Part shown: positions 8,701 through 43,265 of the stretch, piece after piece | Numbering within the stretch: position 1 is the first letter of the stretch | Layout: each line of letters opens with the position of its first letter | IMG/VR virus record: IMGVR_UViG_3300025099_000034 | Location: 1 to 48,547 of that record | Strand: one strand, 5' to 3' | DNA from: a virus | Length of the DNA: 48,547 bases | The notes under the pieces: model-generated | What the model saw: the letters and a program-made list of their open reading frames with translations, nothing else | Database searches by the model: none | Told to the model about the DNA's origin: nothing | Position numbers and translations under genes: made by a program

Positions 8701-10926
8701 TCTAAATATTTGTATCTGCTGCTCTGTAAGATTTGCAAATTTATTTTCACTAACAGCTGCTGACACTGCTGGTATTGTTCCCAAAACAAACCCACCTACA
8801 GCTTCTTGAGCTGATGCATAAGCAACTTGACCTAATAATTCTGCAAAACTTTCAGGAGTATCAAATAATTCTTTCCCTTTAATAAGGTTATATATTTCTT
8901 TAAATCCTATATCACTAAGCTCTTGAGCTGCACCAGTTTCTGCTTCAGCAAGTGTTGCTCCCCCTAAAACTAAAGCTCCTTTGGTGGCAGAGTTTTTAAC
9001 TTCTTGGTCTAAAAACTCTTTAAATGTTCTTGCTGAACCTCCTTTAGGCATTTTATTTAAGACCTTTGTTAATACATTGGCAACAAACCCACCTTTATCA
9101 AACACATTTCTAATACCATAATTTTCTAATGCCGCAACTGTAAGAGCGGCTGGCACTTTAAATAAAACTTTTTCATTTTCACTTATGTTTGCAAAATCAG
9201 GATTGTTACTCATCTGCTCATCGAGCTTACCAGATGTAAGCATAAACAAACTTGCTAGCCTACCGGGCCCAGCAAATAAAGATGGTATAGATTCTGCTAC
9301 ACCAGATAATGCTCCTAAGAAAAATCCTTTTTGTTTTGTTGCTGCATATTGTTCGGTAATTGATTTACCTCCTAATTTTTTTTGCCACCCATCTCGTATA
9401 TTAGTTATAATTCCGCCCTGTCTAACCCCATCTATCTCTTCACCATACTTCACATCTTTTATATACCTGTCTTTTATTTTTCCTTGAATAACATCAAACT
9501 CACTCATGGGTGTTAACATACTTTTTTTACCAGAATCTTTTTTATAAAACTCTTTTAAATCATCAACACTCATTTTTTCTAAGTCTTCTTCTAATGGCGA
9601 TGCGTATTCTAATTGTTTAGCTGCACGCAAAATTTCTTCTTTAAATTTATCATCCCCCATTTCTTTTCGCAAATCTACTGCTCCTGGAAGACCAAGCTTT
9701 GCAGTTAAAGCATAGTTTGCTACTTCAGAAATTGGAGTACTTATACCACTTGCCAAGTTGTACTTCATTAAAAGACCAAAGTTTCCTTGCTCTTTTTGCA
9801 TGTCATAATACTTCCCAACTGCTGTATTTAATTCTGCTTTTTGTAAATCTAAATTATCTCCTTCTTCTAATAGCTTTAACCCTGCCTCTTCATGTAATTT
9901 TATCCTACTGTTATAGTCATCAATTTGTTCTTGATTCATTGACTCCCTGTTTTCAAAATCTTTCTCTAACCTTAGACTATTTGCACTATATTGCTGAATA
10001 CCTTGATTGAACCTGTCTTGCCTTTTAGCTATAGAAAATAAAGATTCATCCATCTCTTTATCATTTCTAAACTTTATGTCGTTAGCCTCATACCCAATTA
10101 CTCTTTGTGCAAGTGCAGAACTTTTTTCTTTGTTTTCTTCTATAAACTCTAGCAACTCTTTAGCACGTTTACCTTCGTCTTGAAAAAAGCCTATGTTAAT
10201 TTTTATAGAAGGGCCATCATCAAATCCATTTTCACCTCTTGCTGAAACTTTAATTTTTTGCCCAAGAATATCTGCTTCTTCAAATTTAAAACCTTGGTCT
10301 CTATATAAGTAGTTTAGTTTTGGTACAATAAAACTTTCATTTTTATTCAACAAATCTTTGACATCTTTAAACTCTTGAGATAAATCGTTTACCTTTGATA
10401 GTTCCATATCAGTAGAAACTATTTCTCCTTCTCTTTTTTTCTGTTCTTCTATGTTTGTATTATCAAAACCTACTGTAGGTTTTATAAGAGCATCCCTTTG
10501 CTCAGTTAAAGATTCTAACTCTATCATTGCAGGGGTTTTCTCTGCAGGTTTACCTAAAGGATATAATTTTTCTTCTTCTTCAGATAAAGGAGTTTCAGCC
10601 TCTGTTTGAATTTGTTTTTCAAGGTCAGCTATTTGAATAGAAAGGGTGTCTATTTTACGACCAGTTTGTAGCTCTTGGTCTTCTGATAAATCCGAACCAC
10701 CATCCCCCGAAGGAGAATCCATAGGTTCGTCTTCGATTTTTTTTTTTGAAGAATACTGGTTGGTGAAAGTTTCTTTGTCTTTTGAATAAAGCTTTTTATC
10801 GGTGACCACATTGTAAACTTTATCTACATATTCAGGGTCAGAAAACTGCTCTTCAAACTCTTCCAAAGATTTTGAATAAAGTTTTTTATCTATTAATACG
10901 TTATATAATTTTTCAATTTCTTCCAT
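2749..10926 (-). CDS. Giant polyvalent internal virion/ejection protein with metallopeptidase motif
   Basis: A 2725-residue protein, the largest in the window. Residues about 4-64 are two tandem copies of a 30-residue unit containing K-L-Y-S-K, seen at the N-terminus of many phage ejection-type proteins. Glu/Gln-rich coiled-coil stretches follow to about residue 400. HEIFH (988-992) within a PHEIFHATL string is a zincin active site, and the preceding G-F-Y-D-T-N-E-N-V-I-H-I-D strand is typical of the metallopeptidase domains in large polyvalent phage proteins. Long helical regions follow; near the C-terminus two hydrophobic segments (A-F-M-P-V-L-F-A-Y and F-V-W-G-L-V-I) could insert in membranes. 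With the two genes before it, it fits a T7 gp14/15/16-like set that is ejected with the DNA to build a trans-envelope conduit and perhaps cut peptides. Role inferred; no lysozyme motif is obvious. Confidence 0.8.
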   Translation of the reverse strand: MEEIEKLYNVLIDKKLYSKSLEEFEEQFSDPEYVDKVYNVVTDKKLYSKDKETFTNQYSSKKKIEDEPMDSPSGDGGSDLSEDQELQTGRKIDTLSIQIADLEKQIQTEAETPLSEEEEKLYPLGKPAEKTPAMIELESLTEQRDALIKPTVGFDNTNIEEQKKREGEIVSTDMELSKVNDLSQEFKDVKDLLNKNESFIVPKLNYLYRDQGFKFEEADILGQKIKVSARGENGFDDGPSIKINIGFFQDEGKRAKELLEFIEENKEKSSALAQRVIGYEANDIKFRNDKEMDESLFSIAKRQDRFNQGIQQYSANSLRLEKDFENRESMNQEQIDDYNSRIKLHEEAGLKLLEEGDNLDLQKAELNTAVGKYYDMQKEQGNFGLLMKYNLASGISTPISEVANYALTAKLGLPGAVDLRKEMGDDKFKEEILRAAKQLEYASPLEEDLEKMSVDDLKEFYKKDSGKKSMLTPMSEFDVIQGKIKDRYIKDVKYGEEIDGVRQGGIITNIRDGWQKKLGGKSITEQYAATKQKGFFLGALSGVAESIPSLFAGPGRLASLFMLTSGKLDEQMSNNPDFANISENEKVLFKVPAALTVAALENYGIRNVFDKGGFVANVLTKVLNKMPKGGSARTFKEFLDQEVKNSATKGALVLGGATLAEAETGAAQELSDIGFKEIYNLIKGKELFDTPESFAELLGQVAYASAQEAVGGFVLGTIPAVSAAVSENKFANLTEQQIQIFREIKNNPKISQSALTNLIKMEINGGEITPEQGKQIKADYELAIGLANELPGGINNPAFAEAMDLKIRKKVLEDRTAPPIDQNLGSVKQDNLEIQQINERLAQIKETTTDTQVEGATQQESKDITEVVEQAESAAPVPETKESATDTFFGKKKTKNVEEISDNLIINTNEQPENLKPNQVTLRNVVKGLAKTGAKAIQKLFPETKIILHESTTEFERFAPAGNRGFYDTNENVIHIDLNKASATTVPHEIFHATLLSKIKTNAEAAKLAENMMRSVRKALPKNSPLARRIDEFAAKYDDKPDFQNEERLAELMGIMASEYTQLTKPQKNKVIKFLQDLANKIGLNINISEFTQQDSDVVDLFNTLAGKISTGETITETDVQIIEEQSGLDKEQEQGEGGQVGTLTFPPTGREQRAPSVKTDTRSFSSLITDKSVKDFKNQKIITNMYDFTSAGPTEIAPGIVLDLYGGKSYVPLMMEKQGLNIGDFSNLAAFNTDVNAETFKRNVEQGDVSLFAPHVGTLEKSWQFQQNIFEQLTYAALDNNILTNEELITLFNSALTNIDGKKALNVFNKKSNLNIKDFNSFKDNPKKLVELLDIKNNYSPELRKLFNDRYSGNAKYKDALKVNNKIDFVKKFQDPLNVGSNSFDIISLIKFDNRDLQITKPNVGDVDYHPSFAYTIKANIEGIYQPDLFYQSSEVTDTYTKYNIASTTVSVKEEVGEDSFKKSNVASSSGSIPKVAQINKITPREQREKTIQEVAQFYNVDTAGFANPMVDEFQFRKAAEPLGYGVARARSGSLYVTKNNKFINPYEIDTNQLTGRGQRSDDFYVDIASQLRDRKVREELIVDTLRRQYKLSETKIKDILDIQSLTLGGVPDSFKKIGDAAGTKLFLQLETFILKQRKANKKKPLSKTAEADSVINYLMERPQFKGLAETYKVKGETKTKKGLSSLQAQMLSDLTSILEARPSQTVTAQIVKARKSITDKKKGATTVKSQQQILINLLRRNLPKSLFTKSEVIDIVRKIQDLSTVDLKGNNLENIVDDIEKTVTKLNNKNVLSRIKRLLNGKYEVVVSGKPKGVKIDVDTKKRLKTITSLLVADDASVEVIGKTQEKLRAELESLLESNNDTENQELTPETLMRIADITTAINYNEAMLQENSDISKLENLTRAFVQLENIVVRGRDIQAGILQEKHKQYMQNLSILIKETTKQELNPDEENFKKEVEAVSKTREGIAEKERVNGNLITKFKKMMRRFSNTMGFGAAQDLTGLIDQLAEFPGVVFGGQLQEIVTDKVNESTRQYKSRMLDFSYLLEENLIKYYGKNYQYTLRELNQTDNIFYKNIKEVEAAQAKYDKNRNDDTKNELRDVLARNEIILSQEQIGYMVFQYNDPALHPTFKNMYGEDYQRVMREMNEKLDDRVRAFGEWQVKEFYPIMHQRFNETYKRIYYTDMPYNKYYAGPIRREGEKTEEFHLLQGASKYNATVGSNYTKLRVNSTDKIKNSTLVDAMQEYTQDMEYFDAYAENLQTISRLFTNKDAKIIIESIHGKEFYNLIDNMINNLAMAGKSKTNMLSANVLNFFNNVFQISRLMLSPAIAIKQLTSIPTFALEPEVGPANWIKYTAKNKTQQLQVYNEVLENSVYLKDRAARSILRSIETYNPERFQSFIPKPTQNFAIDLLMGFIKVADRSAILLGGLPNYSFYKAKYQKENPNATEQQAIDYAIRKFEKDVKSTQQSYDLQDRDIHQNRDPFSRGINMFLTTPKQYLRREITGWRQMTRAAKRFAKGDKNKNAPNIAQAFSQLAFYHAFMPVLFAYTSLGFPGLARDRRDDDDDTLMRAAFMGNLNGLFVWGLVIQQFADAYQDKPWYRQTTSFPVFETATDIAVIINKLGKAKTQEDYNEVNKEMFEFINKNGLPYSIIERWVNNLQKVINGETDGAGEDVLRIFNFSEYAISGPQKKAKKLKFGSSGKKSKGLDFDFDTSLDLDLKTDFDID

Positions 10927-13318: not shown

Positions 13319-15109
13319 TTACGGATAGCTTTTCATTACATCGCTCTCTACTGCAAACAGTTCCGTAGCCTGAGTATTAAAGTTCGTGATAGTAAATATA
13401 CAATAATGTCCTAGTAAACCATGAGATTCAGCCTCAGAACTTTTAATAAACAAAATGTATGGGTCGTTTAGCGGAAAAACAACTGTGTCAGCTGCGGTCG
13501 TACTTACTATTAATTGGTTTATGCCATTAGGTAAGTCTACATTTATTTGAGTAACCACACCACCAAAAGTAACATCGGTATATTGTGGTAGGGAGTGGTA
13601 TACATAATCTCCGACACTTATAAAGCTACCTATAGAAACGAGGGGGTTTGTAGAAAAGCTTAGTGTAGTTGTTCCTTGATTTATAGCTACGTTTGAAGTC
13701 TTACCAATACCATTAGCTGACCTCATAGCGTATTGTCCTTTTAACGCTGGCACTTCACCTCTTTGTCTGAGGTAAGTAAACCAAGCTCCTTCTTTCTTTT
13801 CAAACCATCCGTCTTCCATAAAACCATTTATCTGTATATCTGTTTCAAGATAAGATTCCCAAGCATCATTAGATTCTAGGTTTAATGTTTTGTAAATTTT
13901 ATTTTCTAGTGGATTCTGATTAAAAACACTTGTTAATTGTGAATGATATTGCTCTCCATAATAATTGTTTCTTTTTTCATTTACATTGTGTTGAAATAAA
14001 TTACCACCTTGAAACGTGTAAAAAAAGTTATTCATACCTATCATATACTCAGGTATATAAGAATAAAATGACGGCCAACCTTTAGAGTTTTGACTATAAC
14101 TTACTGTCCATTCTGTATTAACAGGGGATGGTATAGGCGGGACTACACTTGGAGGTGTAGGCGCTGGTGTAGGAGGTGTAGGCGTTGGTGGATTTGAAGA
14201 ACCACAATTTGCATCAAACCTTAAATTGTTTTCACCTAAAAAATACTGACCGTTTGTAGACTCTGGATATAATGTTTGATAACTTATAGTTCCAAAGTCT
14301 TGATTTACATTTAATGTAATTGTCCCTGAATAAAACGAATATGTGTTTCCATCTAAACCAACAGCATTTTTTTCTAATTTAGTTCCTGTATAAGATATTG
14401 CATTTTCTAATCCATTATTTAAAAAAGCAATAGGCCATTCTGGTGTAACTCCAGTTATTTGATATATCCCTGTGTTAACTTTATAAATACCCCACTCACC
14501 ATTTATAACATAAAAACTTACTGAAGTATCAGGTAAATTTAAAACATCAGGAAATTCTGTTGTATAGGTAGAAACCGTTAGAGAGTTTGTAAAACTTAAA
14601 CAATATTCTGCAGTACCGGGTGGAGAAGGGGGGCTAGGCGGAGTAGGTGTAGGCGCTAAACCTGCGGCACAAGTAGCACAATCAGAATAAGATGTGTTTG
14701 GTAAATCTAAATAAGAAATATTTGTTGTGCTTACGCCATTAGTCCAACATATACCTTGATAAGGTATTGTGTTTGGCCATCCTGTAAAACTGGCTGGCGC
14801 TCTAAATATTTGTTTCTGACTTGAGGCATTACAGTTTTCATATTCATAGTAAATAAAACCTTCAAGTGGGTCAGGGTTTGCATTACCACACTTAGTAAAA
14901 CATTCTTTTTCTTTATCAAACCACTCGCCTCCTAATGAATTAGGAATTATTTGTGCAGTTTCATCAAGACAATAAGTTTCAAAAGTATTAGCAGGTACAT
15001 CTATTTGTATAACATTACCGTCACAACATGTTACAAACCATGAACATATCGCTGTTTCACTACCTACTGAATCAATGGGACACGAAAAACGTATTGACTT
15101 ACAAGCCAT
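13319..15109 (-). CDS. Cys-rich fibre/adhesin with Pro-rich linkers and cupredoxin-like domain
   Basis: A 596-residue modular protein. Residues 1-150 hold Cys-rich segments ending in CATC (144-147). A Thr/Ser-Pro linker (about 152-165) follows, then a beta-rich domain (about 195-300) similar to one in the fibre at 41166-42578, a second Pro-rich linker (about 307-330), and a C-terminal domain of about 265 residues with no recognised family. In the shared domain the residues matching copper ligands in the other fibre are replaced (Trp225 for His; no Cys-x2-His-x2-Met). Cys modules and Pro linkers match those of the 897-residue fibre across the intervening oxygenase and glycosyltransferase genes. 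Probably a virion adhesin; receptor unknown. Confidence 0.65.
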   Translation of the reverse strand: MACKSIRFSCPIDSVGSETAICSWFVTCCDGNVIQIDVPANTFETYCLDETAQIIPNSLGGEWFDKEKECFTKCGNANPDPLEGFIYYEYENCNASSQKQIFRAPASFTGWPNTIPYQGICWTNGVSTTNISYLDLPNTSYSDCATCAAGLAPTPTPPSPPSPPGTAEYCLSFTNSLTVSTYTTEFPDVLNLPDTSVSFYVINGEWGIYKVNTGIYQITGVTPEWPIAFLNNGLENAISYTGTKLEKNAVGLDGNTYSFYSGTITLNVNQDFGTISYQTLYPESTNGQYFLGENNLRFDANCGSSNPPTPTPPTPAPTPPSVVPPIPSPVNTEWTVSYSQNSKGWPSFYSYIPEYMIGMNNFFYTFQGGNLFQHNVNEKRNNYYGEQYHSQLTSVFNQNPLENKIYKTLNLESNDAWESYLETDIQINGFMEDGWFEKKEGAWFTYLRQRGEVPALKGQYAMRSANGIGKTSNVAINQGTTTLSFSTNPLVSIGSFISVGDYVYHSLPQYTDVTFGGVVTQINVDLPNGINQLIVSTTAADTVVFPLNDPYILFIKSSEAESHGLLGHYCIFTITNFNTQATELFAVESDVMKSYP

Positions 15110-15127
15110 AAAGAATTTATTTGTTTA

Positions 15128-15135
15128 CAAATTTA
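15128..15135 (-). promoter_or_regulatory. Candidate promoter -7 element (TAAATTTG)
   Basis: The minus strand reads TAAATTTG about 20 bases before the start of the fibre gene at 15109, in a 45-base gap after the glycosyltransferase gene. It matches TAnnTTTG but lies in very AT-rich sequence, so support is weaker than for the TATCTTTG sites. Confidence 0.35.
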
Positions 15136-15154
15136 CGAATTTATAAATTAAGGT

Positions 15155-16570
15155 TTATAAACCACCGCCCCAATTACCAGTGCCGTAGTGATATGTTTGA
15201 ATAAAATCAAAATTAAATTTTCCTACAGGATTAAACTGAGCGTAAGGTAAAACTTTATGAGGTATATTGTTTTCTTTTACAAATTTAGATAATGCAATAG
15301 GTCCTACTATTTGCCTAACAAAAGTACCTAAAGGTTTGCCTTCTATTTCCTTTCTGTTTAGAATGTCGGTCAAATTATTTTTAATATCTACTTTTAAAGA
15401 TTCTAAAAAAATATTCCATAAATCAGAAGGTGGAGATATTATAAATCCATTTTGATAGTCTTCATCTCCAGCGGAAGATTCTAGCAGATATATAGAGTGA
15501 CTATCTAATTGTTTTGTAAAGTCATTGTAAACTTCAAAATCCATATCACATATAACACCTCCAATATCTCGTGCTATTAAATATCTTACGAAATCAATTT
15601 TATATATAACAGGGCATTGATTTAATATTTCATAAAACTCTTTATCATATCTCATTAAGTAGGTATTAATTCCTTCTCTATCACACCATTTGTTTCTTTT
15701 GTAACCTTTGATTGTGTCCCAACTATAATCACATCTAAACCATTCTTTACTCCATCGGTTTTTGTCCTGTGGAGCAACTTGATGTATTATGTTTGGTCTG
15801 TACTTTGTTCCGTATAATTTGTTAAAATCTTCAATAGTTCGCACATCATCTTTTAATCCCACTAAACGTGGTGTGCCTTGGTTGGGATGATAAGCTTGCC
15901 TCTGATTAGATTTATCGTACAAATGATATATACCTGGATAAGGTATATTAGTAATATCATATCCAGCTAAAAAAGTATTGAATGTAGCATAGGTTTCTTC
16001 AAAATACATATCACCTTTTTGAACATATATATCTAAATCAAGCACAGATATATCACTAAAAAAATATCCAGCAGCTATTGTGCTTGGCCCTAAATATTTT
16101 TTTTCTTCTACTCCTTGCGCTCCTGGCCAAAACCTACCTTGTTTATCAATCTTATCTATTTTATTTATATAACAAGCATCCCAACTTTTTTTATCAGGCA
16201 GATAGTACATAGAAGGGAAACCACTGAACACTACATTTCCCTCATAATCATCAAGATGGTTTATTAGTTTTTGGTCAAACCCTTTATCAAACCTCATGTG
16301 TGCATCAACTTGTAAATAATATTTATGATGAGGTTTTACATAATTACGTATTTGTTCTCTTGCCCAGACTACTCCATTAGTTCTTTTGTAGCTACTATAA
16401 ACTTCTGTAACATTCTGATAGTTTATGTTTTCAGGATATTCACTTTGATTGAATATTATAATATCTAGATTATCTTTATTGCCAGCGTTATCTATTAAAC
16501 TCTCTATTGTTTTTTTTACTTCATCATCACAATAAGAAGCAACAGAAATTAATAACTCTGGTTTTTTCAA
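15155..16570 (-). CDS. Two-domain glycosyltransferase: GT60/PF11397-like plus GT32-like
   Basis: A 471-residue protein with no signal peptide or membrane helix, so cytoplasmic. Domain 1 (about 5-215) starts L-I-S-V-A-S-Y and contains YYLQVDAHMRF (84-94), the D-x-H metal/sugar-nucleotide motif of the PF11397 GlcNAc-transferase family. That family includes the Dictyostelium Skp1 hydroxyproline GlcNAc-transferase and trypanosome mucin GlcNAc-transferases. Domain 2 (about 258-380) starts P-N-I-I-H-Q and has KIDFVRYLIARDIGG followed by CDMDF with the DxD at 342-344, as in GT32 capsular/mannosyl-type transferases. One chain could therefore add two sugars in sequence. It lies one base downstream of the dioxygenase gene and between two Pro-rich fibre genes, so modification of fibre hydroxyprolines is the favoured inference. 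Lipopolysaccharide or other phage proteins are alternatives. Confidence 0.8.
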   Translation of the reverse strand: MKKPELLISVASYCDDEVKKTIESLIDNAGNKDNLDIIIFNQSEYPENINYQNVTEVYSSYKRTNGVVWAREQIRNYVKPHHKYYLQVDAHMRFDKGFDQKLINHLDDYEGNVVFSGFPSMYYLPDKKSWDACYINKIDKIDKQGRFWPGAQGVEEKKYLGPSTIAAGYFFSDISVLDLDIYVQKGDMYFEETYATFNTFLAGYDITNIPYPGIYHLYDKSNQRQAYHPNQGTPRLVGLKDDVRTIEDFNKLYGTKYRPNIIHQVAPQDKNRWSKEWFRCDYSWDTIKGYKRNKWCDREGINTYLMRYDKEFYEILNQCPVIYKIDFVRYLIARDIGGVICDMDFEVYNDFTKQLDSHSIYLLESSAGDEDYQNGFIISPPSDLWNIFLESLKVDIKNNLTDILNRKEIEGKPLGTFVRQIVGPIALSKFVKENNIPHKVLPYAQFNPVGKFNFDFIQTYHYGTGNWGGGL

Positions 16571-16571
16571 A

Positions 16572-17846
16572 TTATATTATTTTATAATGTACATAAAAGT
16601 TTCTAAAATAAGTTCCTCCAAAAGGCTCTTCTCTTCCGTGTTCACATATTGCTGACTCATACATAATCATATCTCCTGGCTCAGCATACACTTTATACCA
16701 TTCCCCATCATGACCTTGAATATCTAAAGGCCAGTCATCAGACTCTGGCTTGTTTGCACATCCACACGCTAAATCCTTGTCAACTATAATAATAGAACTT
16801 ATGTGGTGGGTTTCGACCCTGTCGTAGTGTTTTTCAAGAGTAGCTCCTTTTTTATACGACCTTATACCATAAATAAAAGATGGCTCGATGTCTTGGTTGT
16901 TAATCCAGTTTTGATGTACTGGTAATAATTGATTATGGATTAAGGTTCTTATGGAAGGTAAAGCATCGAGTGATAATATCTCTGTATCTCCTCCTTTAAT
17001 AATATTTTCTTTTCCGTCAAAAACTTCATTTACTCGTTTGTCTTTTAATATGTTGTAAGAATCATTAATTATATTCCAGGTTTCTGCTGGACATTTTTGT
17101 ATAGCAAAACCTAGTTCAGTAAATTTTGGAATTTGTTCTTTAGATGTAAAAATTTTAGGTTTTGTTTCTATAGCAGGTTTGCTTTCTTTTTTAGTTAATT
17201 CAGAAGCTTTGACTATATATGATTTTTTATCTTCTACTTTTTCTTCCTTCTTTTTTTCAACGGAATCATAATACATTTTTTCATCGCTAGCCCCATTCCA
17301 GTTTTTTTCTCTCCACCATGAAGTCACTACATACTTTTTACCTTCATCAACTGTAACACCTTCGTGTAAATATTGCTCTTGTGTTTTCCCATCTTTCATG
17401 TTATACCACCATGAAGCTTTGCCTGTCTCAGGCTCTACGGTTTTTTGTAATGTAGGAAAGTATGTGCCTCCTCCTTTATAGTCATCATTTAAATATATCA
17501 TTAAAGTATGAGTTCTATTTCCAGATGCTTTGCAGTGCATGTCATAAGCAGGGCCGCTAAAAAAATCATTATGTGGTTTAAAGTATTGACCAGGTTCATA
17601 TAGTTGACCTTGAAGTGCTTCTCCTTTAACAAGTTCTAAACCTAAAGTGTCGGCTATTTGTTTTTTTATTTTAGACATTATAGGAGTGTTCATGTCTAAA
17701 TTAGATGTGCTTGATGTTCTATGATTAGTAACATCCGTTCTGTCAGTACCCCCTACTACTACTGATGAGCGTGAATGATTTGCGTCAATCATTTTAATAA
17801 GTTCTTGACACTCCTCAGGTGTAATAAAATTATGTATTTCCTCCAT
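16572..17846 (-). CDS. Tandem 2-oxoglutarate/Fe(II) dioxygenase, prolyl-4-hydroxylase type
   Basis: A 424-residue protein with two oxygenase domains joined by a Lys/Glu-rich linker (about 196-240). Domain 1 (1-185) resembles prolyl 4-hydroxylases: QLYEPGQYFKPHNDFF gives the iron ligands His92 and Asp94, the distal ligand is His161 in YLHEGV, and Lys170 or Lys171 would bind 2-oxoglutarate. GGGTYFP before the distal His is typical of the family. Domain 2 (about 240-424) has H-Y-D (His340, Asp342), distal His403 in CEHGREE and Arg415, so it also looks catalytically complete. Known relatives hydroxylate proline or other residues using O2, Fe and 2-oxoglutarate. The gene lies between the 897-residue Pro-rich fibre and the glycosyltransferase, which makes fibre prolines plausible substrates. 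The substrate is inferred. Confidence 0.85.
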   Translation of the reverse strand: MEEIHNFITPEECQELIKMIDANHSRSSVVVGGTDRTDVTNHRTSSTSNLDMNTPIMSKIKKQIADTLGLELVKGEALQGQLYEPGQYFKPHNDFFSGPAYDMHCKASGNRTHTLMIYLNDDYKGGGTYFPTLQKTVEPETGKASWWYNMKDGKTQEQYLHEGVTVDEGKKYVVTSWWREKNWNGASDEKMYYDSVEKKKEEKVEDKKSYIVKASELTKKESKPAIETKPKIFTSKEQIPKFTELGFAIQKCPAETWNIINDSYNILKDKRVNEVFDGKENIIKGGDTEILSLDALPSIRTLIHNQLLPVHQNWINNQDIEPSFIYGIRSYKKGATLEKHYDRVETHHISSIIIVDKDLACGCANKPESDDWPLDIQGHDGEWYKVYAEPGDMIMYESAICEHGREEPFGGTYFRNFYVHYKII

Positions 17847-17899
17847 TTGATTTGATTAAATTTCAAATAAAGTTAATCATTATTATTTACAATTAAAAA

Positions 17900-20593
17900 C
17901 TATGGACAAATTGTAGATGTACAAGATAATGTAAATGCTGAACCATTCCAGTATCTATAATAGCTACCAGTATTATAGTATCCCGCTAAAGCGTTTCTTG
18001 TTCCTGCGCTATCTCTATATAACAACGTTGCTGTACAGAAATCTGATGTATTCATGTAGAACGTAGCGTAACCACTACAAGTAAAACTTGTTGTGCTAAT
18101 AAACTCTAAATTAATAGCCGGGTAACTAGGCGCAGGTGTCGGACTAGGTGTTGGACTAGGTGTTGGACTCGGTGATGGGCTAGGCGATGGGCTAGGCGTA
18201 GGCGTAGGCGATGGACTCGGTGATGGCGTAGGCGTAGAAGCTAGACATGTAGCACAACTATTATAGATACTTACTGCAGTGTTAGAATTTATTGTACCTA
18301 CACTTCCGCCATATAAATAACAATGTCCATCTGCCATTAACAATGATTGTCCTTCAAACAATATTTGAGTTGTAGCCACATTAGTAAATGTTCCTGCACT
18401 TCCATCACATCTATCAATATCATAGTAGTAAACCGATTGAGTAGGAACTGGACTAGGACTTGGACTAGGTGTTGGACTAGGACTAGGTGTTGGACTAGGA
18501 CTAGGTGTTGGACTAGGACTAGGTGTTGGACTTGGTGTCGCTGGTGTACATCCACCACAACTACTTTGCACTGAAACAGTTGTTACGCTACAATCACTCA
18601 CAGTGTTTACAGCTATAATTTCCCAACATTTTGTTCCATTAAATCCTGAACCACAAGAACCTCCGCCGCCTCCACTAATTTTAAGCGATATACCAATTGC
18701 ATTAGAAGCATAAGTTCCGGTCACAGTTACAAATGCAGTTGAACTAGAATTATTACAATCTCTAATTTGAATATTAGTAGTTGGCGGTGGCGTTGGCGCT
18801 GGAACTGGACTTGGTGTTGGAGTGGCACACGTAGTTATAGCTTGAACAACCCCTGTCGAAAGAATTAAATATTTATCATTTGATGGTTGCGGTAAATACC
18901 CCTGTGTATTTGAAATGCTATACCATTCTAAACCTCCGTTAAACACAGTGGTTTTAGAAGAGTTCACATATAATGTATCTCCAACAATTATTTGACCAAC
19001 TGTTGCTCTATCAGAGAACACAAAGTAATCTGTTCTTGCATTACAAGCCGCAGCTTCAGTATAACCTTGCTGAGGAAGAGCATTAATAAACATTGATGGG
19101 TTTTCACAATCTAAACAGTTATTAAAACTACTTAAAGATTCTACATCAACACTTGATGTCGCAGTAGTTGAAACAGGATTAGAGTAACAAATGTTGTTGT
19201 ATTTTATAAAACTAGGGAAACTAGCTGTTGTGCTTTGTTTTCTAAATACCGCTGTTGTTGATGTTTGACATTCAGTATATGTAGCATAATCATAAACCGG
19301 TGTTGCTCCACATCCACCACAACTACTATATGCAGAGTTTAATACAGCAGATGAATCATAAGAAGTTGCAGCATTATCAATTATTTCCCAACAAGTTGAG
19401 CCAGTAAACTCTGGGTTTGGCGCACTAGCAGCACCTGTTATTTCTATCACTATACCATTAGCTAAAGTTGGCGCTGTTAAACCTGTAACTCTTACTTTGT
19501 AAGTTGGTGTTGTAGTAAAACATTGTCTTATTTCAACATCTTGGAATGTAGCAGCAGCTGGAGCTGGTGTTGGACTTGGTGTTGGAGTACAATTTACAAC
19601 TGCATCAACAGCACCTAATGAATTAATCAGTAAAGCATACCCATTATCTAAGTTTGGATAATGACCATTTACGTTTGTTACACCATAGAAATTCAATCCA
19701 CCATTCCACACATTTGTCAATCCTGAATTTGTATATATAATATCTCCTGTTTGTATTGAAGCGACATTAGCTCTTGAAGTATACATACTGTTAGTTGCTT
19801 GCGCAACACACGCAGTAGCTGAGTTTCCTACTCCATTACCCACTGTATATGTGGAAAATATTTGTGTTCCACTTACAGCTGGTGTTGGACTTGGTGTAGG
19901 TGTTGGACTAGGCGTTGGACTTGGACTCGGAGTTGTAGCCTCACAAGTAGCACAATCAACGTAAGTGTCCACAATATCATTAGTACTTGTCAAGCTTGTT
20001 GTTGAAGGATTTTCATAACACAAGTTACTATCCTTAACAACAGCTGGGAATGAGCTACCTGAAACTTTTCTAAATACTTTAGTAACAGAAGTTCCACACA
20101 CATTGTATTCTCTGAAATCATAAGTTACAGTAGGCACAGGCGTTGGAGTCGGACTTGGAGTCGGACTTGGGCTTGGGCCTGGAGCAGGAGTCGTACCACA
20201 AGCAGCACAATCAGTATAGCTAACAAGACCATTTACATTTATAGTAGAAGTTAATCCAGTAGCTTGAGGATTGTAATAACAAATACTATTATAAGATACA
20301 GAAACCGGGAAAGTTCCTCCTTGAACTATTCTAAACACTTCATCACTAGCTATGCCATCACACGCCGTATACACTCTATAATCATAAACAACTGGAGTTG
20401 GCGTCGGTGTAGGTGTTCCACAATTTGGACAATCATCTTCTGCAAACAAAACACCTGAGGCTTGCTGCCTTACAATTGATTGGTCTGAATACCAACCGTC
20501 AGAAGCAAAAGTAGTTAGAGCTGCATCTGTAAATAATGCTGTAGCCGTAGAAAAACTTGCTGAGCTATAATAATATGTTCCTGTTGTTGCCAT
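17900..20593 (-). CDS. Modular Cys-rich fibre/adhesin with (Ser/Thr)-Pro linkers
   Basis: An 897-residue protein built from about nine small beta-rich domains of roughly 50-90 residues. Several of them are clear copies: Y-D-(Y/F) starts, an F-R-K or F-R-I core, a (Y/N)-x-(I/L)-C-Y-x-N-P string and a closing C-x2-C. Others form a second type with TYTVGN/NGGL(N/E) and a GYLP-like string. Domains are separated by seven linkers of Ser-Pro, Thr-Pro and Ala-Pro dipeptides, the two longest near the C-terminus. It resembles bacterial surface adhesins with disulfide-stabilised beads on a stiff, possibly glycosylated string. It follows the tail hub-like gene, whose C-terminus carries the same module, and precedes the dioxygenase and glycosyltransferase. 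Receptor-binding fibre is the likely role; no homologue with known receptor is recognised. Confidence 0.65.
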   Translation of the reverse strand: MATTGTYYYSSASFSTATALFTDAALTTFASDGWYSDQSIVRQQASGVLFAEDDCPNCGTPTPTPTPVVYDYRVYTACDGIASDEVFRIVQGGTFPVSVSYNSICYYNPQATGLTSTINVNGLVSYTDCAACGTTPAPGPSPSPTPSPTPTPVPTVTYDFREYNVCGTSVTKVFRKVSGSSFPAVVKDSNLCYENPSTTSLTSTNDIVDTYVDCATCEATTPSPSPTPSPTPTPSPTPAVSGTQIFSTYTVGNGVGNSATACVAQATNSMYTSRANVASIQTGDIIYTNSGLTNVWNGGLNFYGVTNVNGHYPNLDNGYALLINSLGAVDAVVNCTPTPSPTPAPAAATFQDVEIRQCFTTTPTYKVRVTGLTAPTLANGIVIEITGAASAPNPEFTGSTCWEIIDNAATSYDSSAVLNSAYSSCGGCGATPVYDYATYTECQTSTTAVFRKQSTTASFPSFIKYNNICYSNPVSTTATSSVDVESLSSFNNCLDCENPSMFINALPQQGYTEAAACNARTDYFVFSDRATVGQIIVGDTLYVNSSKTTVFNGGLEWYSISNTQGYLPQPSNDKYLILSTGVVQAITTCATPTPSPVPAPTPPPTTNIQIRDCNNSSSTAFVTVTGTYASNAIGISLKISGGGGGSCGSGFNGTKCWEIIAVNTVSDCSVTTVSVQSSCGGCTPATPSPTPSPSPTPSPSPTPSPSPTPSPSPSPVPTQSVYYYDIDRCDGSAGTFTNVATTQILFEGQSLLMADGHCYLYGGSVGTINSNTAVSIYNSCATCLASTPTPSPSPSPTPTPSPSPSPSPSPTPSPTPSPTPAPSYPAINLEFISTTSFTCSGYATFYMNTSDFCTATLLYRDSAGTRNALAGYYNTGSYYRYWNGSAFTLSCTSTICP
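18120..18245. repeat. Short tandem repeats coding for a Ser/Thr-Pro linker
   Basis: Within the 897-residue fibre gene the DNA repeats ggactaggtgttggacta-like and ggcgtaggcgatgg-like units. On the minus strand these encode alternating Pro with Ser or Thr. Such imperfect 6- to 18-base repeats are prone to slippage and unequal recombination, so linker length may vary between relatives. Confidence 0.7.
18446..18538. repeat. 18-base tandem repeat coding for a Pro-rich linker
   Basis: At least three near-perfect consecutive copies of the 18-base unit tgttggactaggactagg are visible, flanked by partial copies. Reading the minus strand they give a Ser-Pro/Thr-Pro linker in the fibre. The same unit, slightly altered, occurs in the other linker at 18120-18245. 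Confidence 0.8.
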
Positions 20594-20617: not shown

Positions 20618-23600
20618 TTATCCTGAACATCTTGAGTCTCCACATCCTGCTACCTGAACTATTACTTCTCCATTTTGTCCTGACCCTCCTACATCATATA
20701 ATGATGCACAACCATTAGTTGAACCAAATTTATATTGAACCTCATCACCAACTACAATTCCTAATGTTTGATTTGCTTTCAAATAAACTGCTTGTAAGCT
20801 TACACAATCTATACCTAAGAAATAATCATATACTGGTGCAGGCGCTGGTGTAGGGCTTGGTGTTGGACTAGGTGTTGGGGCTGGAGTAAACGTACAATTA
20901 CAACACGAATCAAATATGCTTACCGCTGAATAACAAAGCTGCTGACCTATAGCGTTTCTTAAATCATAAATTAAATATAACTTATTACCATTAGCTGGTA
21001 AACCAAATTGAGCGCTATACAATGTAGGAGCGCCACTCGAATTTATTGGAGTTGCTTGCACAGATGCAGCTAATAATATACTTATATCAGTTGGATTATT
21101 TTCAAACAATGCATCAGTTCTTAAATATCTAAATTCATTTTCAGTAGGGTCAAACTGGAAGTTGTCAAAATTTAATTTATTACTTCTCATTGTAATAACT
21201 GCTCCATCTGGAGGTATTACTCCTGAAGCTTGAGGGCCTTCTAACTCTCTGTATTGTGAAATTATCGGGTCGCTTGGACTTGCTAAAAATGTAACTAAAT
21301 CTGATTGTGTTGGAGAACTTACAGTTGAATCTGACCAACTAAATTCAGTGTGTGTAAATTGACCTGCGTTAGCATTTGTGCTAAGAGTAATACTGTATAC
21401 ACTAAACAACTCTTCTTCAGGACATTTAACTGTCACTTGAATTGTGTCGTTTACAATTGAATCAGATGAAATAATCATAACAACTTCAGTTGGAGTTGGA
21501 TTTGGTTTTGGAAACTTAAGCGTTCCGCTTTGATAAACTATACCTGTTGAATAAGTAACACCATCATATATTGCTTGAACTATATATCCTGTACCTGAAA
21601 CCTGTCCTTCTGTTTCAATATCTACACCTGCTTCTGAAACTATTTGTTGTTCAGTTCCTTCAGTTACTATTAAATCTGTATTTTCAAATGGAATAACATA
21701 ATCAATTTCAACAAAATATGTTTTTGATGGAGGCCCTGTTGTCTCTCCTAGTTCAACACAATAAACAAATTCTTGTCCTGCAACAATGGTAATGTTTTTT
21801 GTAACACCACAAGCAGTACATATTTCAGTCTCTGGTTTTACAATTGTATTAGTTGTAAACACATATTCTTGCATATAAGGGTCGTAACCTCCTAGTTTCT
21901 GTGTTGCTGATGCTTCTGCAAATAAATCTCTAAACCAACTTCTCATACCTTCATTAGATATTACAGTTAGTATTTCGTTTTGAGCAGAACTACCCGTTAA
22001 TTTTATTATAACGTTTCTTTTTGCATCAGAGAAATATTTATTTTCACCAAATGTTGCAAAACTTTCTGGGTGATTACTAATTCCAAACTCTTCTACTCTT
22101 GCTATTTGTGTGCCTAAAACTTCAGGAACGGAAGTAACTACACCACCTCCAGTAGCATCTGATAATAAATTTTTACCAGCAAGTACATAAGATATCTTGT
22201 CTTCTTGTAATACTAAAATATCTGTTTTTCTTGCAAATAATATCTCAACATCTCCATACGTTTCTTCAAGCGGCTTAAAGTTTACTAATCCTAAGTTAAA
22301 TTCATTTAATCTGTTTACATTTGATTCATCATTAAAGACACCACTGTATGTAATGTCAGCAAACCTGTGAGCTGCTTTAAATTCTTCGTTAGATGTTGTA
22401 AAAATTCTGTTTCCTAAATTAAAAGATTTACCTTTTATAGAGTCTCTAATCCTATAGCTTTCAACACCGTTTCCAAAACTATAACAATTTGTAAATCCAG
22501 GGTTTACAATTGCTGATTGAAAAGAAGTTTGGTTTTGTACATTTCCTAAATGTAGTCCATTACTAATATCAAATGATTGACTGTTTTCATACCAGGCATC
22601 TGGTAAAGCGTCTTGTGCTTCAGTTTCAAACACATAAGTAGCTCCATCACCTCTATATACAGTAAATGAAACTTCAAGCATAGATTCGGTATTTTCTGTA
22701 CCACCATAAGACAAAGGCCCAGAAACTAAAAGATATATTAAATTGTTTCCACTAGAGTCTTGCGTATTAGAGTCTTCATAAATTCTGTAATAAAAATTTT
22801 CATTAAAATCTAAAGGTGAAGGTGTACCTCCTCCAAAATAAGTAGAAGCATTTAGTTCAGATATATTTTTACAACCTTTATTTACATTAGCAGTTACAAA
22901 AGGAGGAGCTCCATTAGTAACCTGTGGTGAAACAAACGTGTTGTTTATGACTTGTTGTTGTCCTGGATTTTTTATTCCACTATTTAAAATACTAGCAACA
23001 TTATCACCAATAAACCAATTAGCCGCATTAGTATAACTAGTTGATGCTGTTAACGTTTGTTCAAGCGTATAATTCTGTCTTCCTCCTGCACCAGTTCCAG
23101 CTCCATTTCTCCTCATTTCTACCCTCATGACTATTCTACTTCCAACGGGAACATCGTAAACATCATAAGTAGAAGTTAAAGGAGCTTGTCTATTTACGGT
23201 TGTAAAAAAAGGAAACGCTACAGTAGGTATGTCGCCACTTGTAGTACATGTTTTTTTAATAGGGTCAATTGCAATAACAGCATTAGGGTCTTGTATAGAT
23301 GAAAAATTAGAAGCGTTTATCTTCATATAAACACCACCTATAACATCAACCGCAGTTCCCGACGCGTCAAATATAGATATAAAACCACTGGACTGAGCTT
23401 CTTTTTCTAAAACAGTTGTTCTTATACATCTAGTAGTTGGTCCTGTATTATCGGCCTTTACAATTAATGTGTCACCCGCTTCAACTTTAGCTGCATTTTC
23501 ACCATCTAATAAAAAGTAACTTGAACTTGAAACTGTGTCTCTATAAGCAACATTACTATAAATTGTTTCATAGGTGTCTTTAGTAGGTTTTACAACAAAT

Positions 23601-25579
23601 TTATATTTTGTTGCCCAAGCCGGAGCTTTCATTGATGGTGGTATTTCTACTTCTATATAGTTTCTGTCAATAGAATTGCTACATGGAATGTTAAATGAAG
23701 CTCCTGAACCTCCTGGAGCATTACTTACTAAAGCTGTTGATGCTCGGTTGTAATCATCCATGTAAATAATACCTACCTCATAACCTCTATTACTGTGTAA
23801 ACTTTCAGCGCTTGCGCTATCTCTAAAAGAAGCAGTTTCATTTACTATGCCCCAGTAAGCGTAACCTGATTGTGCTACTCCATCACTATAAAGAGCCGCT
23901 AAGTTTTGTATTTGTAAAACATTTGAGGAAGTACTTGCTGTAGCTACTAAAGATTGACCAGCGCTTGGAAACGTTGAAGTTGCAGAAGTTATTCCTGTTT
24001 GTAACAAGCTATAAGTAGAATCTAAATTTTCAGGCACAGTTCTGTTAAAGACATCTGTTAAAGTATTACCAAGTCCAGCTTGTGCATTGGCAACGGTTTG
24101 TATTGTTCCATTTACCCCATCAGTTCCTATCTTTTCTTGAAAATCTACACTATTAACAAAATCATAAACAGTAGTATAATCATCTATCAAAGTATAAGAC
24201 CAACTAAGCTCAAATATAGCTGTAGTTGGTGTTGGAGCTGAGCCAAAAACTTGTTCAAATTCAAAAAATGTTATACCAAAATTTAAAGTTAATCTTGTTC
24301 CTTTTTTTAATTTAGATTCACCGGTCATTAAAGGACTTAAGTCAACATATAATACTGAATCTGAAATAGATTTACTTGTAGATGTAGGAGTATATGTAAA
24401 TTGTCCAGTACTTGTGTGCGCTGATGTGTCAATAAGTGCTATAGGGTCTGACTTAAATGTTGCAGTAAAATCTAACTCTATATTAGCTCCAGCACTATCT
24501 TTCAAATCATACCCCTCCATGTAATTTCCATACATCAGCCTGTTACCCATTAAAGTTTGAGCTTTAGCTAACTGTGGAACATTATCAAAAAGTCTTAGAA
24601 TTTCAGAGTCAGGCAATACGGTAAATATTTCTCTATTTGTAAATTGATAATCCGTATTTGTATTGTTAATACTTCCTAAATCTTTCTTTTTGTTAAGAGT
24701 TTTTATAACTTTTATAGACGTGCTATCTGCTTCTTTAAACAATAACTGAACATCTGTTACACTGCTGCTACCAGTATTAAATGTAATTGAAACGGCATTG
24801 TTTTGATTTACCATTCCTTCATTTAAATAACTATTTGTGGTGAAATCAAAATTACCAGGCGTAAATGCTGGCTCACTAAACTGAGAAATAGCTGAAAATT
24901 CATTATTCGCATACTTATACCTGTAAGCAAAACATAAAAACTTATCTTCTAAATAAGCATCTGTAATACTTGAAACAAAATATGGTAATATTGTTGGAGC
25001 ACTTGTGGGAGGTTTTTTTATTACTAAAATATCATCCTGATTAAATACATCAACATTTACACCAAGTAAAGGGTCTCCATAATTTTGATTAATATTAATA
25101 ACTCTTGGAGGGTTAGTGTTGTCAGTAAAAAATAATAGATTATCTATTTTATCAACTCCTGTAATTAAGAAATTTGGGTTAAAGTTTAGCGTAGTGTTTA
25201 TGCCATTCCCGTCATTAATACTTATTACGTGGTATATTAATTGACCGGTTTCTACATCAAATGAAATTATTAAGTCTAATTTACCCGTAGCACCTTGAGT
25301 AAAAGCTGGGTCATGAACAAACCAATATAAGGCTAAATTAGCTCCATCTTCAAACGCACCAATACACCTAGCCTGTGAGCTCAATTTAGTTCCGTCAACA
25401 TATTGTAGTTCTGTTAGCGGTAAATTTCCTTTTGAATTTTCAACAGCACCAATCTCAGAATCTTCAGTAGAACCAAGTCTTACATTTACAGCATTTATAT
25501 ACTCTCCATTTGGGACAAGCCTTTCATCAAGGCTTTTATTCATACGGCCCGCTATAAAATTTCTCTGAATGTTTGCCAT
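20618..25579 (-). CDS. Tail hub/stabilisation-like protein with Cys-rich C-terminal module
   Basis: A 1653-residue beta-rich protein. The N-terminus (RNFIAGRMNKSLDERLVPNG, followed by N-A-V-N-V-R and E-N-S-K-G-N) matches a class of large phage structural proteins that begin like T7 gp12 or P22-type tail nozzle/stabilisation proteins, with a predicted beta-propeller start. It follows the two adaptor proteins, the usual place of the tail nozzle or hub. The last roughly 110 residues are different: a CCNC string, an Ala/Thr/Ser-Pro linker and a Cys-containing domain starting V-Y-D-Y, the same module as in the next fibre gene. The C-terminus may therefore dock or act together with the fibres. Structural role likely; exact position in the virion inferred. 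Confidence 0.7.
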   Translation of the reverse strand: MANIQRNFIAGRMNKSLDERLVPNGEYINAVNVRLGSTEDSEIGAVENSKGNLPLTELQYVDGTKLSSQARCIGAFEDGANLALYWFVHDPAFTQGATGKLDLIISFDVETGQLIYHVISINDGNGINTTLNFNPNFLITGVDKIDNLLFFTDNTNPPRVININQNYGDPLLGVNVDVFNQDDILVIKKPPTSAPTILPYFVSSITDAYLEDKFLCFAYRYKYANNEFSAISQFSEPAFTPGNFDFTTNSYLNEGMVNQNNAVSITFNTGSSSVTDVQLLFKEADSTSIKVIKTLNKKKDLGSINNTNTDYQFTNREIFTVLPDSEILRLFDNVPQLAKAQTLMGNRLMYGNYMEGYDLKDSAGANIELDFTATFKSDPIALIDTSAHTSTGQFTYTPTSTSKSISDSVLYVDLSPLMTGESKLKKGTRLTLNFGITFFEFEQVFGSAPTPTTAIFELSWSYTLIDDYTTVYDFVNSVDFQEKIGTDGVNGTIQTVANAQAGLGNTLTDVFNRTVPENLDSTYSLLQTGITSATSTFPSAGQSLVATASTSSNVLQIQNLAALYSDGVAQSGYAYWGIVNETASFRDSASAESLHSNRGYEVGIIYMDDYNRASTALVSNAPGGSGASFNIPCSNSIDRNYIEVEIPPSMKAPAWATKYKFVVKPTKDTYETIYSNVAYRDTVSSSSYFLLDGENAAKVEAGDTLIVKADNTGPTTRCIRTTVLEKEAQSSGFISIFDASGTAVDVIGGVYMKINASNFSSIQDPNAVIAIDPIKKTCTTSGDIPTVAFPFFTTVNRQAPLTSTYDVYDVPVGSRIVMRVEMRRNGAGTGAGGRQNYTLEQTLTASTSYTNAANWFIGDNVASILNSGIKNPGQQQVINNTFVSPQVTNGAPPFVTANVNKGCKNISELNASTYFGGGTPSPLDFNENFYYRIYEDSNTQDSSGNNLIYLLVSGPLSYGGTENTESMLEVSFTVYRGDGATYVFETEAQDALPDAWYENSQSFDISNGLHLGNVQNQTSFQSAIVNPGFTNCYSFGNGVESYRIRDSIKGKSFNLGNRIFTTSNEEFKAAHRFADITYSGVFNDESNVNRLNEFNLGLVNFKPLEETYGDVEILFARKTDILVLQEDKISYVLAGKNLLSDATGGGVVTSVPEVLGTQIARVEEFGISNHPESFATFGENKYFSDAKRNVIIKLTGSSAQNEILTVISNEGMRSWFRDLFAEASATQKLGGYDPYMQEYVFTTNTIVKPETEICTACGVTKNITIVAGQEFVYCVELGETTGPPSKTYFVEIDYVIPFENTDLIVTEGTEQQIVSEAGVDIETEGQVSGTGYIVQAIYDGVTYSTGIVYQSGTLKFPKPNPTPTEVVMIISSDSIVNDTIQVTVKCPEEELFSVYSITLSTNANAGQFTHTEFSWSDSTVSSPTQSDLVTFLASPSDPIISQYRELEGPQASGVIPPDGAVITMRSNKLNFDNFQFDPTENEFRYLRTDALFENNPTDISILLAASVQATPINSSGAPTLYSAQFGLPANGNKLYLIYDLRNAIGQQLCYSAVSIFDSCCNCTFTPAPTPSPTPSPTPAPAPVYDYFLGIDCVSLQAVYLKANQTLGIVVGDEVQYKFGSTNGCASLYDVGGSGQNGEVIVQVAGCGDSRCSG

Positions 25580-41000: not shown

Positions 41001-41162
41001 TCCATCCCAAAACTCTACTAAGTTAGTAGTCGTGTTATATCTCCACTCACCTGTACTTGGACTTGTTGGTCTCTGCGCAGTAGTTCCACTAGGCAACTTT
41101 AAAGCAGAGTTTAAGCTTGCTAAGTCAAATAATTCCGGGTTTGTAATTTTTGTTGTTGCCAT
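38046..41162 (-). CDS. Tail fibre with six repeated beta domains and glycine-rich tip
   Basis: A 1038-residue protein. Residues 1-60 contain the collar-type motif G-T-T-A-Q-R-P and R-Y-N-T-T-T-N-L-V-E-F with W-R-D-L. Next come six beta domains in the order A-B-C-A-B-C: A at about 74-168 and 415-508 (G-x-G-F-x-P-x-x-V-W), B at about 192-302 and 529-636 (GHGL-x3-PE-(L/I)-I), and C at about 304-402 and 639-735 (F-G-T-Y/M-G-T-Y-T-G-N). These look like the concanavalin-like DUF7483 repeats of marine phage fibres. The last 290 residues are very Gly/Ser-rich, like receptor-binding tips of polyglycine type. The AB-C triplet seems to have been duplicated. Likely an adhesive fibre; receptor unknown. 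Confidence 0.75.
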   Translation of the reverse strand: MATTKITNPELFDLASLNSALKLPSGTTAQRPTSPSTGEWRYNTTTNLVEFWDGGEWRDLQFEDLPAVPSENFNVVLYNGTSATHAITGVGFKPDFVWIKDRSNGESHILNDSTRGAGNDLSSNTNSAQTNRPTGFVSFDSDGFTLGADGGGVVNDSARGPYVAWCWKAGGGTTSSNTDGTITSTVQTNQVSGFSIVEYTGNGNTSQESFGHGLNSTPELIIQKSIDTLSTYGTNNWLLGGSAVGAAGSWLEFNSQDAKQTDSNYWGNQLPSSTVVYISGSAERVHNESGKKFINYCFVEKAGYSKFGTYTGNGSATGPIVNTGFEPAFVIIKRTDSADNWSMTDNARNTTNPRNKTLFPNLTQTELTSGYSVNYLSNGFQIADSGGGVNANGGTFLYIAFGSDPSAAPTLPDSFANKIYSGNGGTQSITGLGFSPSWVWAKRRSATEDNAWFDIVRGTEKQITSNKTNAQNNTTNAISSFDSDGWTTGANNALNTSGQTYVAWNWKINPLPTINTDGAIQSIVSANQAAGISIVKWDGTGSASTVGHGLGSAPEIIFTKRLNGSGDWYSFSTFLNSGTNPAYNFIKLNSSDAEIVNGSSGGSIWNSTSPTATVINVGTTLSGSSSDSYIAYCFTSISGFSKMGTYTGNSSTQSITGLGFQPNWLMIKQINGSNSWRIFDSARGLSAPQTLFANLDSQQDSESNTVSSFDSDGWTMGSQQGVNDNGDTYIYMAFKENPAPRPLAGNMSFLVVAGGGAAGIYYGAGGGAGGLRTSYGSTSGGGASAESDVTLSAGTYTITVGAGATGGSTTATTVASRKGTDSSIAASSITTITSSGGGGGATGGAGGAAYLTGGNGGSGGGAWTNQGAGTGTANQGFAGGTGTNLGGYSEVNGGGGGASSAGQNASSAAGNGGAGLSVSITGASVGYAGGGGAGGPEAGSGDGTFGTGTDGGGNGGYSTAGQENGTSGTANTGGGGGGGSAGILAGSIGTNGSGGSGVAILRLLTSEYSSSTTGSPTVTTDGDYTILTYTGSGTYVHS

Positions 41163-41165
41163 AAT

Positions 41166-42578: not shown

Positions 42579-42579
42579 A

Positions 42580-43263: not shown

Positions 43264-43265
43264 TA

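Follow-up and report, generated by a model that had tools for sequence, protein, structure and literature searches.

In the Skp1 pathway of Dictyostelium and other protists, a cytosolic prolyl-4-hydroxylase (P4H) is paired with a soluble GT60-type transferase that acts on hydroxyproline (Hyp), and further glycosyltransferases (GTs) extend the glycan (PMC8724618). Plant HRGPs, the extensins and AGPs, carry Ser/Thr/Ala-Pro repeats and are modified by P4H, HPAT/GT95 and the Ser-transferase GT96. Hydroxylation followed by glycosylation of viral repeats is already known from mimivirus, in which L230 modifies the virus's own proteins in this order (PMC9614988). Chlorovirus PBCV-1 encodes a P4H, vCPH, with a domain homologous to the one described here (2e-11), and glycosylation of phage virions is known from mycobacteriophages Che8 and Rita, whose own GTs decorate virion proteins (PMC11256854). 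Prolyl hydroxylase folds are also widespread in phages of marine bacteria (PMC12774648). In the open-access literature that we searched, we found no report of phage Hyp, of a P4H-GT cassette acting on Pro-rich linkers, or of HPAT-like phage proteins, though prior work could have been missed.

We describe a 7-kb stretch of a marine phage genome that, in our reading, would be a cassette for modification of the phage's own tail tip. As in the Skp1 pathway, a P4H and a GT60-type initiating transferase are both present. The phage has no Skp1, however, and where the protist enzymes act on one proline of one cell-cycle protein, the predicted phage acceptors are dozens of Ser/Thr/Ala-Pro repeats in structural proteins. 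The enzymes here are phage-encoded and swappable, so the likeness is one of working and not of membership. The plant system shares the repeats, the P4H and, in relatives of our phage, an HPAT-family protein (PF23452), but plant enzymes are Golgi membrane proteins (PMC8012813), whereas those of the phage lack membrane spans and have no secretory pathway to act in. Mimivirus L230 is likewise a virus-encoded hydroxylase and GT, but it is a bifunctional lysyl hydroxylase and glucosyltransferase of a giant eukaryotic virus, acts on lysine in collagen repeats, and belongs to other oxygenase and GT families. vCPH differs in being a single domain with no linked GT, and the mycobacteriophage systems differ in decorating capsid proteins, with no hydroxylase and no Pro-rich acceptor.

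Gene order, linkers and the muzzle

The window, meaning the whole stretch of DNA that we analysed, is a 48.5-kb virus record whose source phage is uncultured. Its genes for terminase, portal, capsid and ring-like proteins have matches among PHROGs of podovirus head and tail proteins. By homology, this marine phage is related to crassviruses and to podoviruses of Cellulophaga and Flavobacterium. Pachyviridae and Elemovirus phages are among its closest named relatives, and named relatives of its muzzle genes occur in phages of Flavobacterium, Cellulophaga, Tenacibaculum and Maribacter and in Manatee Spring phage ctfjg026. The genes and linkers of the locus are these:

20618..25579, minus strand: muzzle body, 1653 aa (phrog_14478, 3e-214), homologous to the fused body and MUZ_C protein of elemoA
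20819..20899, minus strand: linker near the C-terminus of the muzzle body, NCTFTPAPTPSPTPSPTPAPAPVYDYF
17900..20593, minus strand: 897-aa modular protein, predicted main substrate, with an anchor conserved in linker-less relatives
20378..20434, minus strand: linker 1 of the 897-aa protein, GTPTPTPTP
20117..20203, minus strand: linker 2 of the 897-aa protein, TPAPGPSPSPTPSPTPTPVP
19865..19945, minus strand: linker 3 of the 897-aa protein, TPSPSPTPSPTPTPSPTPAV
19544..19600, minus strand: linker 4 of the 897-aa protein, TPTPSPTPAP
18761..18835, minus strand: linker 5 of the 897-aa protein, TPTPSPVPAPTPPP
18428..18556, minus strand: linker 6 of the 897-aa protein, ATPSPTPSPSPTPSPSPTPSPSPTPSPSPSPVP
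18107..18247, minus strand: linker 7 of the 897-aa protein, TPTPSPSPSPTPTPSPSPSPSPSPTPSPTPSPTPAP
16572..17846, minus strand: tandem P4H-type oxygenase gene, complete, 424 aa
15155..16570, minus strand: two-domain glycosyltransferase gene, complete, 471 aa, TTG start
13319..15109, minus strand: 596-aa protein with Cys modules, two Pro linkers and a C-terminal crassvirus muzzle domain (PF25729)
14597..14671, minus strand: linker of the 596-aa protein, APTPTPPSPPSPPG
14105..14209, minus strand: linker of the 596-aa protein, NPPTPTPPTPAPTPPSVVPPIPSPV
13322..14107, minus strand: muzzle C-terminal domain region (PF25729 at aa 379-448; alignment)

An earlier note, made from sequence alone, had reported four of these reading frames, from the 897-aa protein to the 596-aa protein. 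Their coordinates, lengths and minus-strand orientation held, and its count of seven linkers in the first protein and two in the last held exactly. It had recognised two linker carriers; there are three, as it overlooked the linker in the muzzle body. It had also named the two Pro-rich proteins fibres and taken fibres to be the targets of modification. This part failed, and we reject the name: the 596-aa protein proved to contain PF25729, the C-terminal domain of crassvirus muzzles (9.6e-17, 61.6 bits against a cut-off of 27, aa 379-448), and the 897-aa protein is an adjoining modular insert. The putative targets are thus tail-tip, or muzzle, proteins. Tail-fibre-like proteins with DUF7483 and Gly_rich_2 domains are encoded elsewhere in the window, upstream of the terminase (38046-44222), and these are more probably the ordinary fibres than are the proteins flanking the cassette. 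After the muzzle genes lies a 2725-aa protein (2749-10926), in place of which relatives have proteins of 1657 to 3859 aa; it is probably an ejected cargo protein.

The 897-aa protein consists of a conserved N-terminal anchor (aa 1-58) followed by Cys-containing modules joined by the seven linkers, and it is placed between the muzzle body and the muzzle C-domain protein. In Flavobacterium phage elemoA, body and C-domain form a single protein; in Cellulophaga phi19:3 they are encoded by adjacent genes; and in ctfjg026 a single gene separates them, its 183-aa product being homologous to the N-terminal part of the 897-aa protein. From this series, we infer that the cassette was inserted into a split muzzle and expanded there. 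The muzzle of phicrAss001 is a tail-tip protein that probably makes contact with the cell (PMC10172136). Given this location and the muzzle homology, the linker proteins likely sit at the tail tip of the virion, a placement that is inferred by homology and not shown. What is shared with phicrAss001 gp44 is the PF25729 domain family and the tail-tip place of the substrate; the phicrAss001 muzzle is a single five-domain protein (PMC10172136), whereas here body and C-protein are split, with the cassette between them. PDB sequence searches with the muzzle body and the C-domain profile returned no solved muzzle structure, and those with the window GT, muzzle body and ring protein returned no match.

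A related gene of the Manatee Spring phage (L087:19445-19996; MW202828, UOF82484) is annotated as a 'putative glycosidase'. The label is doubtful, since the product shares homology with the N-terminal anchor of the 897-aa protein and has no match in Pfam.

Linker residues number 209 in the 897-aa protein and 60 in the 596-aa protein. Residue shuffles of the same proteins gave means of 74 and 19 and maxima of 175 and 74, respectively, so that the 596-aa protein, taken alone, falls within the shuffle range. Across loci with the P4H, the residue preceding a linker proline is T (36%), S (18%), A (14%) or V (11%), and many units are Ala-Pro or Val-Pro, with no Ser/Thr acceptor.

Oxygenase, glycosyltransferase and the sugar slot

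Each of the two enzymes has two domains:

17304..17834, minus strand: P4H domain 1 (H92, D94, H161, K171); PF13640 2.3e-14, PDB P4H 1.6e-25, Foldseek
16575..17129, minus strand: second 2OG-Fe(II) oxygenase domain (H340, D342, H403, R415); phrog_2954 3e-16
15875..16555, minus strand: GT domain 1, GT60-like with D-x-H motif; PF11397 6e-14
15158..15787, minus strand: GT domain 2, GT32-like (DxD in CDMDFEVY); PF04488 weak in the window

Domain 1 of the oxygenase is a P4H by sequence and by fold. This is shown for family membership; hydroxylation of peptidyl proline is itself inferred. H92, D94 and H161 of the HxD...H iron triad and the 2OG lysine K171, ten residues past the distal His, are 100% invariant in 63 homologues. 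Among PDB sequences, the domain matches the P4H of B. anthracis (1.6e-25, 5iax), human C-P4H alpha-2 (1.2e-16), an algal P4H (7e-13) and chlorovirus vCPH. The best Foldseek matches of the predicted oxygenase fold (mean pLDDT 83.7) are P4Hs, at TM (target) of about 0.65-0.72, and those of domain 1 include the algal P4H-(Ser-Pro)5 complex 3gze.

The Pfam signal of domain 2 is weak, but the domain matches phrog_2954. It has no solved relative in PDB, where the only match (0.042) is meaningless. Its residues are nevertheless conserved (H340 97%, D342 95%, H403 and R415 100%), and the earlier note's claim of complete Fe ligands in both domains held. Because domain 2 keeps its own nearly invariant ligand set, both domains are probably active; this is inferred from conserved residues without an assay, and the substrate of domain 2 is unidentified. 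Two-domain relatives of the P4H were sought in bacterial genome contigs and none was found, and named phage records hold only distant single-domain P4Hs and no homologue of the window GT. By hydropathy, neither P4H nor GT has a membrane span (maximum KD19 of 0.84 and 1.24, respectively), which fits cytosolic action like that of the Skp1 GTs (PMC8724618).

GT domain 1 belongs to the GT60 family by profile (PF11397, 52.7 bits against a cut-off of 21) and by motif. The D-x-H motif that the earlier note had seen is present as VDAHMRF, and D[AS]H.RF is conserved in every GT60-like relative row that covers it. Shorter homologues in the same slot match PF11397 at up to 2.3e-39, and the GT of a sister clade at 4e-71 (240.7 bits). 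GT domain 2 scores below the PF04488 cut-off of 23 in the window (1.7e-3, 19.5 bits), but stand-alone homologues of 206-207 aa score above it (3.7e-8 and 1.1e-9; 34.4 and 39.3 bits). Its GT32-like nature is a point the earlier note did not make.

We call the genes between the oxygenase and the muzzle C-protein the slot. Across relatives, it holds GT60, PF23452, GT32 (PF04488), PF10250 O-FucT-like and carbamoyltransferase families, dTDP-glucose dehydratase- and GDP-fucose synthase-like SDRs (GDP_Man_Dehyd) and a radical SAM protein; most of these families are protein O-glycosyltransferases. In the place of the window GT, relatives encode a protein of 277 aa with a match to PF23452, the hydroxyproline O-arabinosyltransferase family (HPAT/GT95), a fact beyond the knowledge of the earlier note. 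The match is modest yet repeated: 11 of 17 members reach E<=0.01 (best 4.3e-8), several above the cut-off and others just below it. PF23452 matched nothing in 14 control genomes. It did not match the window's own GT either, and the window has no HPAT homologue. The predicted structure of the HPAT-like protein (pLDDT 53) was not used.

The gene content of the slot turns over. On the muzzle tree we count at least 16 changes in its combination of genes while P4H and linkers persist, and loci with about 90% identical muzzle C-domains carry quite different sugar genes. The P4H was never swapped among loci, and its catalytic residues are kept down to 57% identity.

Three slot variants deserve mention in their own right. 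In the slot of one marine relative (L044:12791-15962), an HPAT-like GT is accompanied by an APS kinase (4.5e-15), a PIG-L deacetylase (4.8e-13) and a cytidylyltransferase-like protein, which suggests sulfated or de-N-acetylated tail glycans. In L028 (11236-12138), L029, L030 and L033, a radical SAM/SPASM protein lies between P4H and GT60 and could be a further modifier of peptide or sugar. The slots of L041 (9324-12212), L046, L052 and L054 hold a carbamoyltransferase (NodU/TobZ-like) and an extra 183-aa oxygenase-like protein.

Enzymes and linkers among relatives

We gathered relatives from IMG/VR with four anchors, namely the GT, the P4H, a ring protein profile and the muzzle C-domain, the last two of which are independent of the oxygenase. 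Each scan was limited to 80 loci, and the muzzle C-domain was scanned with single sequences instead of its alignment profile, which was too divergent. Removal of P4Hs more than 95% identical left 46 non-redundant P4H loci. At all 39 that could be scored, the gene upstream of the P4H is linker-rich. Downstream, a linker is present in the muzzle-C protein at 37 of 38 P4H loci (L124 being the exception), and one or more sugar genes occur in 37 of 38 complete slots; in L086, the P4H and linkers are unaccompanied by a GT. The earlier note had proposed such a survey and held that its idea would be refuted if the P4H-GT pair stood next to proteins lacking Pro repeats as often as next to proteins with them. 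The outcome is the opposite.

We compared linker residues in 77 non-redundant loci that reach the muzzle C-domain, sorted into three states. The 31 loci with P4H have a median of 258 linker residues (range 65-389). The 14 loci with GT60 and no P4H have a median of 66.5 (17-135), Thr/Pro-rich. The 32 loci with neither enzyme have a median of 0, with a range of 0-26 except for the distant relative L231 (126); almost no linkers are thus present in 31 of the 32. In six near-complete or large genomes (42-63 kb) of the GT60-only and neither-enzyme groups, PF13640 was found nowhere, whereas two near-complete P4H-bearing genomes have exactly one PF13640 protein each, with linkers and enzymes confined to the cassette locus. 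Scanning four genomes through, together with the window, located this linker type only in genes around the cassette; the genome among them that lacks the enzymes has no such linkers. These results show an invariant place for the enzymes among linker proteins and their absence from linker-less relatives.

The number of independent events behind this correlation is small. On the muzzle tree, P4H presence switches only about 3 times, and just one of the contrasts lies on well-supported branches, so the correlation rests on one to three gains and may descend from a single historical event. As the independent contrasts are too few for significance in a formal phylogenetic test, we do not rely on Mann-Whitney values. 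The strength of the argument lies instead in persistence over deep divergence and in slot turnover restricted to glycan genes.

Two other explanations of the locus bear on this evidence. The linkers could be ordinary flexible Pro-rich linkers and the enzymes passengers in a hypervariable insertion site. The highly variable slot composition would fit, as would L231, which has P-rich stretches without P4H or GT. Those stretches, however, are Pro/Ala/Glu/Asn-Pro and not Thr/Ser-Pro, the slot is limited to glycan-related functions at 37 of 38 loci, and the constancy and conserved catalytic residues of the P4H are not those of a passenger; we consider this explanation very unlikely. Alternatively, the P4H could target a host protein such as EF-Tu, or the translation machinery, with the GTs acting on the host surface or phage components and the synteny merely inherited. 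Bacterial P4H relatives do bind and modify EF-Tu (PDB titles 5v7y and 4iw3), and the few changes in P4H presence would be compatible with inheritance. Against this, enzymes and linkers are co-absent from relatives with the same muzzle genes, the enzymes are embedded in a virion operon between linker genes at all scorable loci, neither enzyme has a membrane span, and the slot families are mostly protein O-glycosyltransferases. We regard a host target as unlikely.

The GT60-only loci form a sister clade (L104, L109, L115-L120, L190-L192, L210-L227) with a full-length PF11397 GT, Thr/Pro-rich (TPTPTATP) linkers and no P4H; it is monophyletic with 100/100 support. It may be a phage mucin-type glycosylation system in its own right. 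By analogy, phage clades with P4H and GT60, or with GT60 alone, resemble the Skp1 and mucin uses of GT60 in protists, a parallel that we infer.

This clade is also the basis of the third rival explanation, that GT60 glycosylates linker Ser/Thr in mucin-like fashion and the P4H hydroxylates linker prolines for stiffness only, the two acting side by side and not in series. In favour, the clade's 14 loci keep the GT (4e-71) and Thr/Pro linkers without a P4H, GT60 includes mucin-type polypeptide GlcNAc-transferases that act on Ser/Thr (PMC8724618), and the Ser galactosyltransferase family GT96 of plants is a relative of GT95 (PMC8012813). Against it, an HPAT-family protein occupies the slot of 12 of the 31 P4H-bearing loci, and characterised plant members act on Hyp; the many Ala-Pro and Val-Pro units, moreover, offer nothing for a Ser/Thr transferase. 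The parallel arrangement remains possible.

A proposed hydroxylation and glycosylation of the tail tip

We favour a serial reading, in which prolines of the virion's own linkers are hydroxylated and the linkers then glycosylated, and we assign it a probability of about 0.72 on comparative evidence only, with no chemistry shown. In this model, the acceptors would be the (Ser/Thr/Ala/Val)-Pro linkers of the 897-aa protein, together with those at the C-terminus of the muzzle body and in the N-terminal portion of the muzzle C-domain protein; all three are taken to be virion proteins. Oxygenase domain 1 would convert linker prolines to 4-hydroxyproline in the host cytosol, the GT60-like domain of the adjoining GT would start a glycan, and the GT32-like domain would probably extend it. 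The modified linkers may then act at the receptor-facing tail tip as stiff and soluble spacers that resist proteases and are individually decorated. The sugar genes are swapped often, a pattern suggestive of diversifying selection on the glycan. Both the choice of the linkers as substrate and the benefit of their decoration are inferred, without biochemical evidence.

The earlier note's central idea, that the phage hydroxylates and glycosylates its own Pro-rich linkers, is therefore supported comparatively, with the modification itself unproven. Its proposal of glyco-hydroxyproline holds only in part. Since the sister clade has GT60 without P4H, the sugar may sit on Ser/Thr as well as on, or instead of, Hyp; we lean slightly toward attachment on Hyp itself rather than on Ser/Thr only, by inference. 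Counting against our main reading, the PBCV-1 P4H is active on Pro peptides, yet hydroxyproline was sought in PBCV-1 virions and not found (PMC7019647).

One can envision a bolder form of the serial reading, for and against which the evidence seems to us evenly balanced: Hyp-linked protein glycosylation, known from eukaryotes, would operate in the tail tip of a marine phage clade. A fixed P4H combined with exchangeable GT60, HPAT-like, fucosyl-, carbamoyl- and sulfate-activating enzymes would let each phage display its own glycan.

If the serial reading is correct, this phage would be the first for which hydroxylation and glycosylation of its own proline-rich linkers had been shown, and Hyp-linked glycosylation, a feature of plants, algae and protists, would enter the world of bacterial viruses. 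The small soluble P4H-GT pairs could be used for making Hyp-glycoproteins in bacteria. For the phages themselves, the model makes a testable prediction of what a tail tip carries, would account for the retention of prolyl hydroxylases by some marine phages, and suggests that glycan diversification may be a strategy of counter-recognition or receptor tuning.
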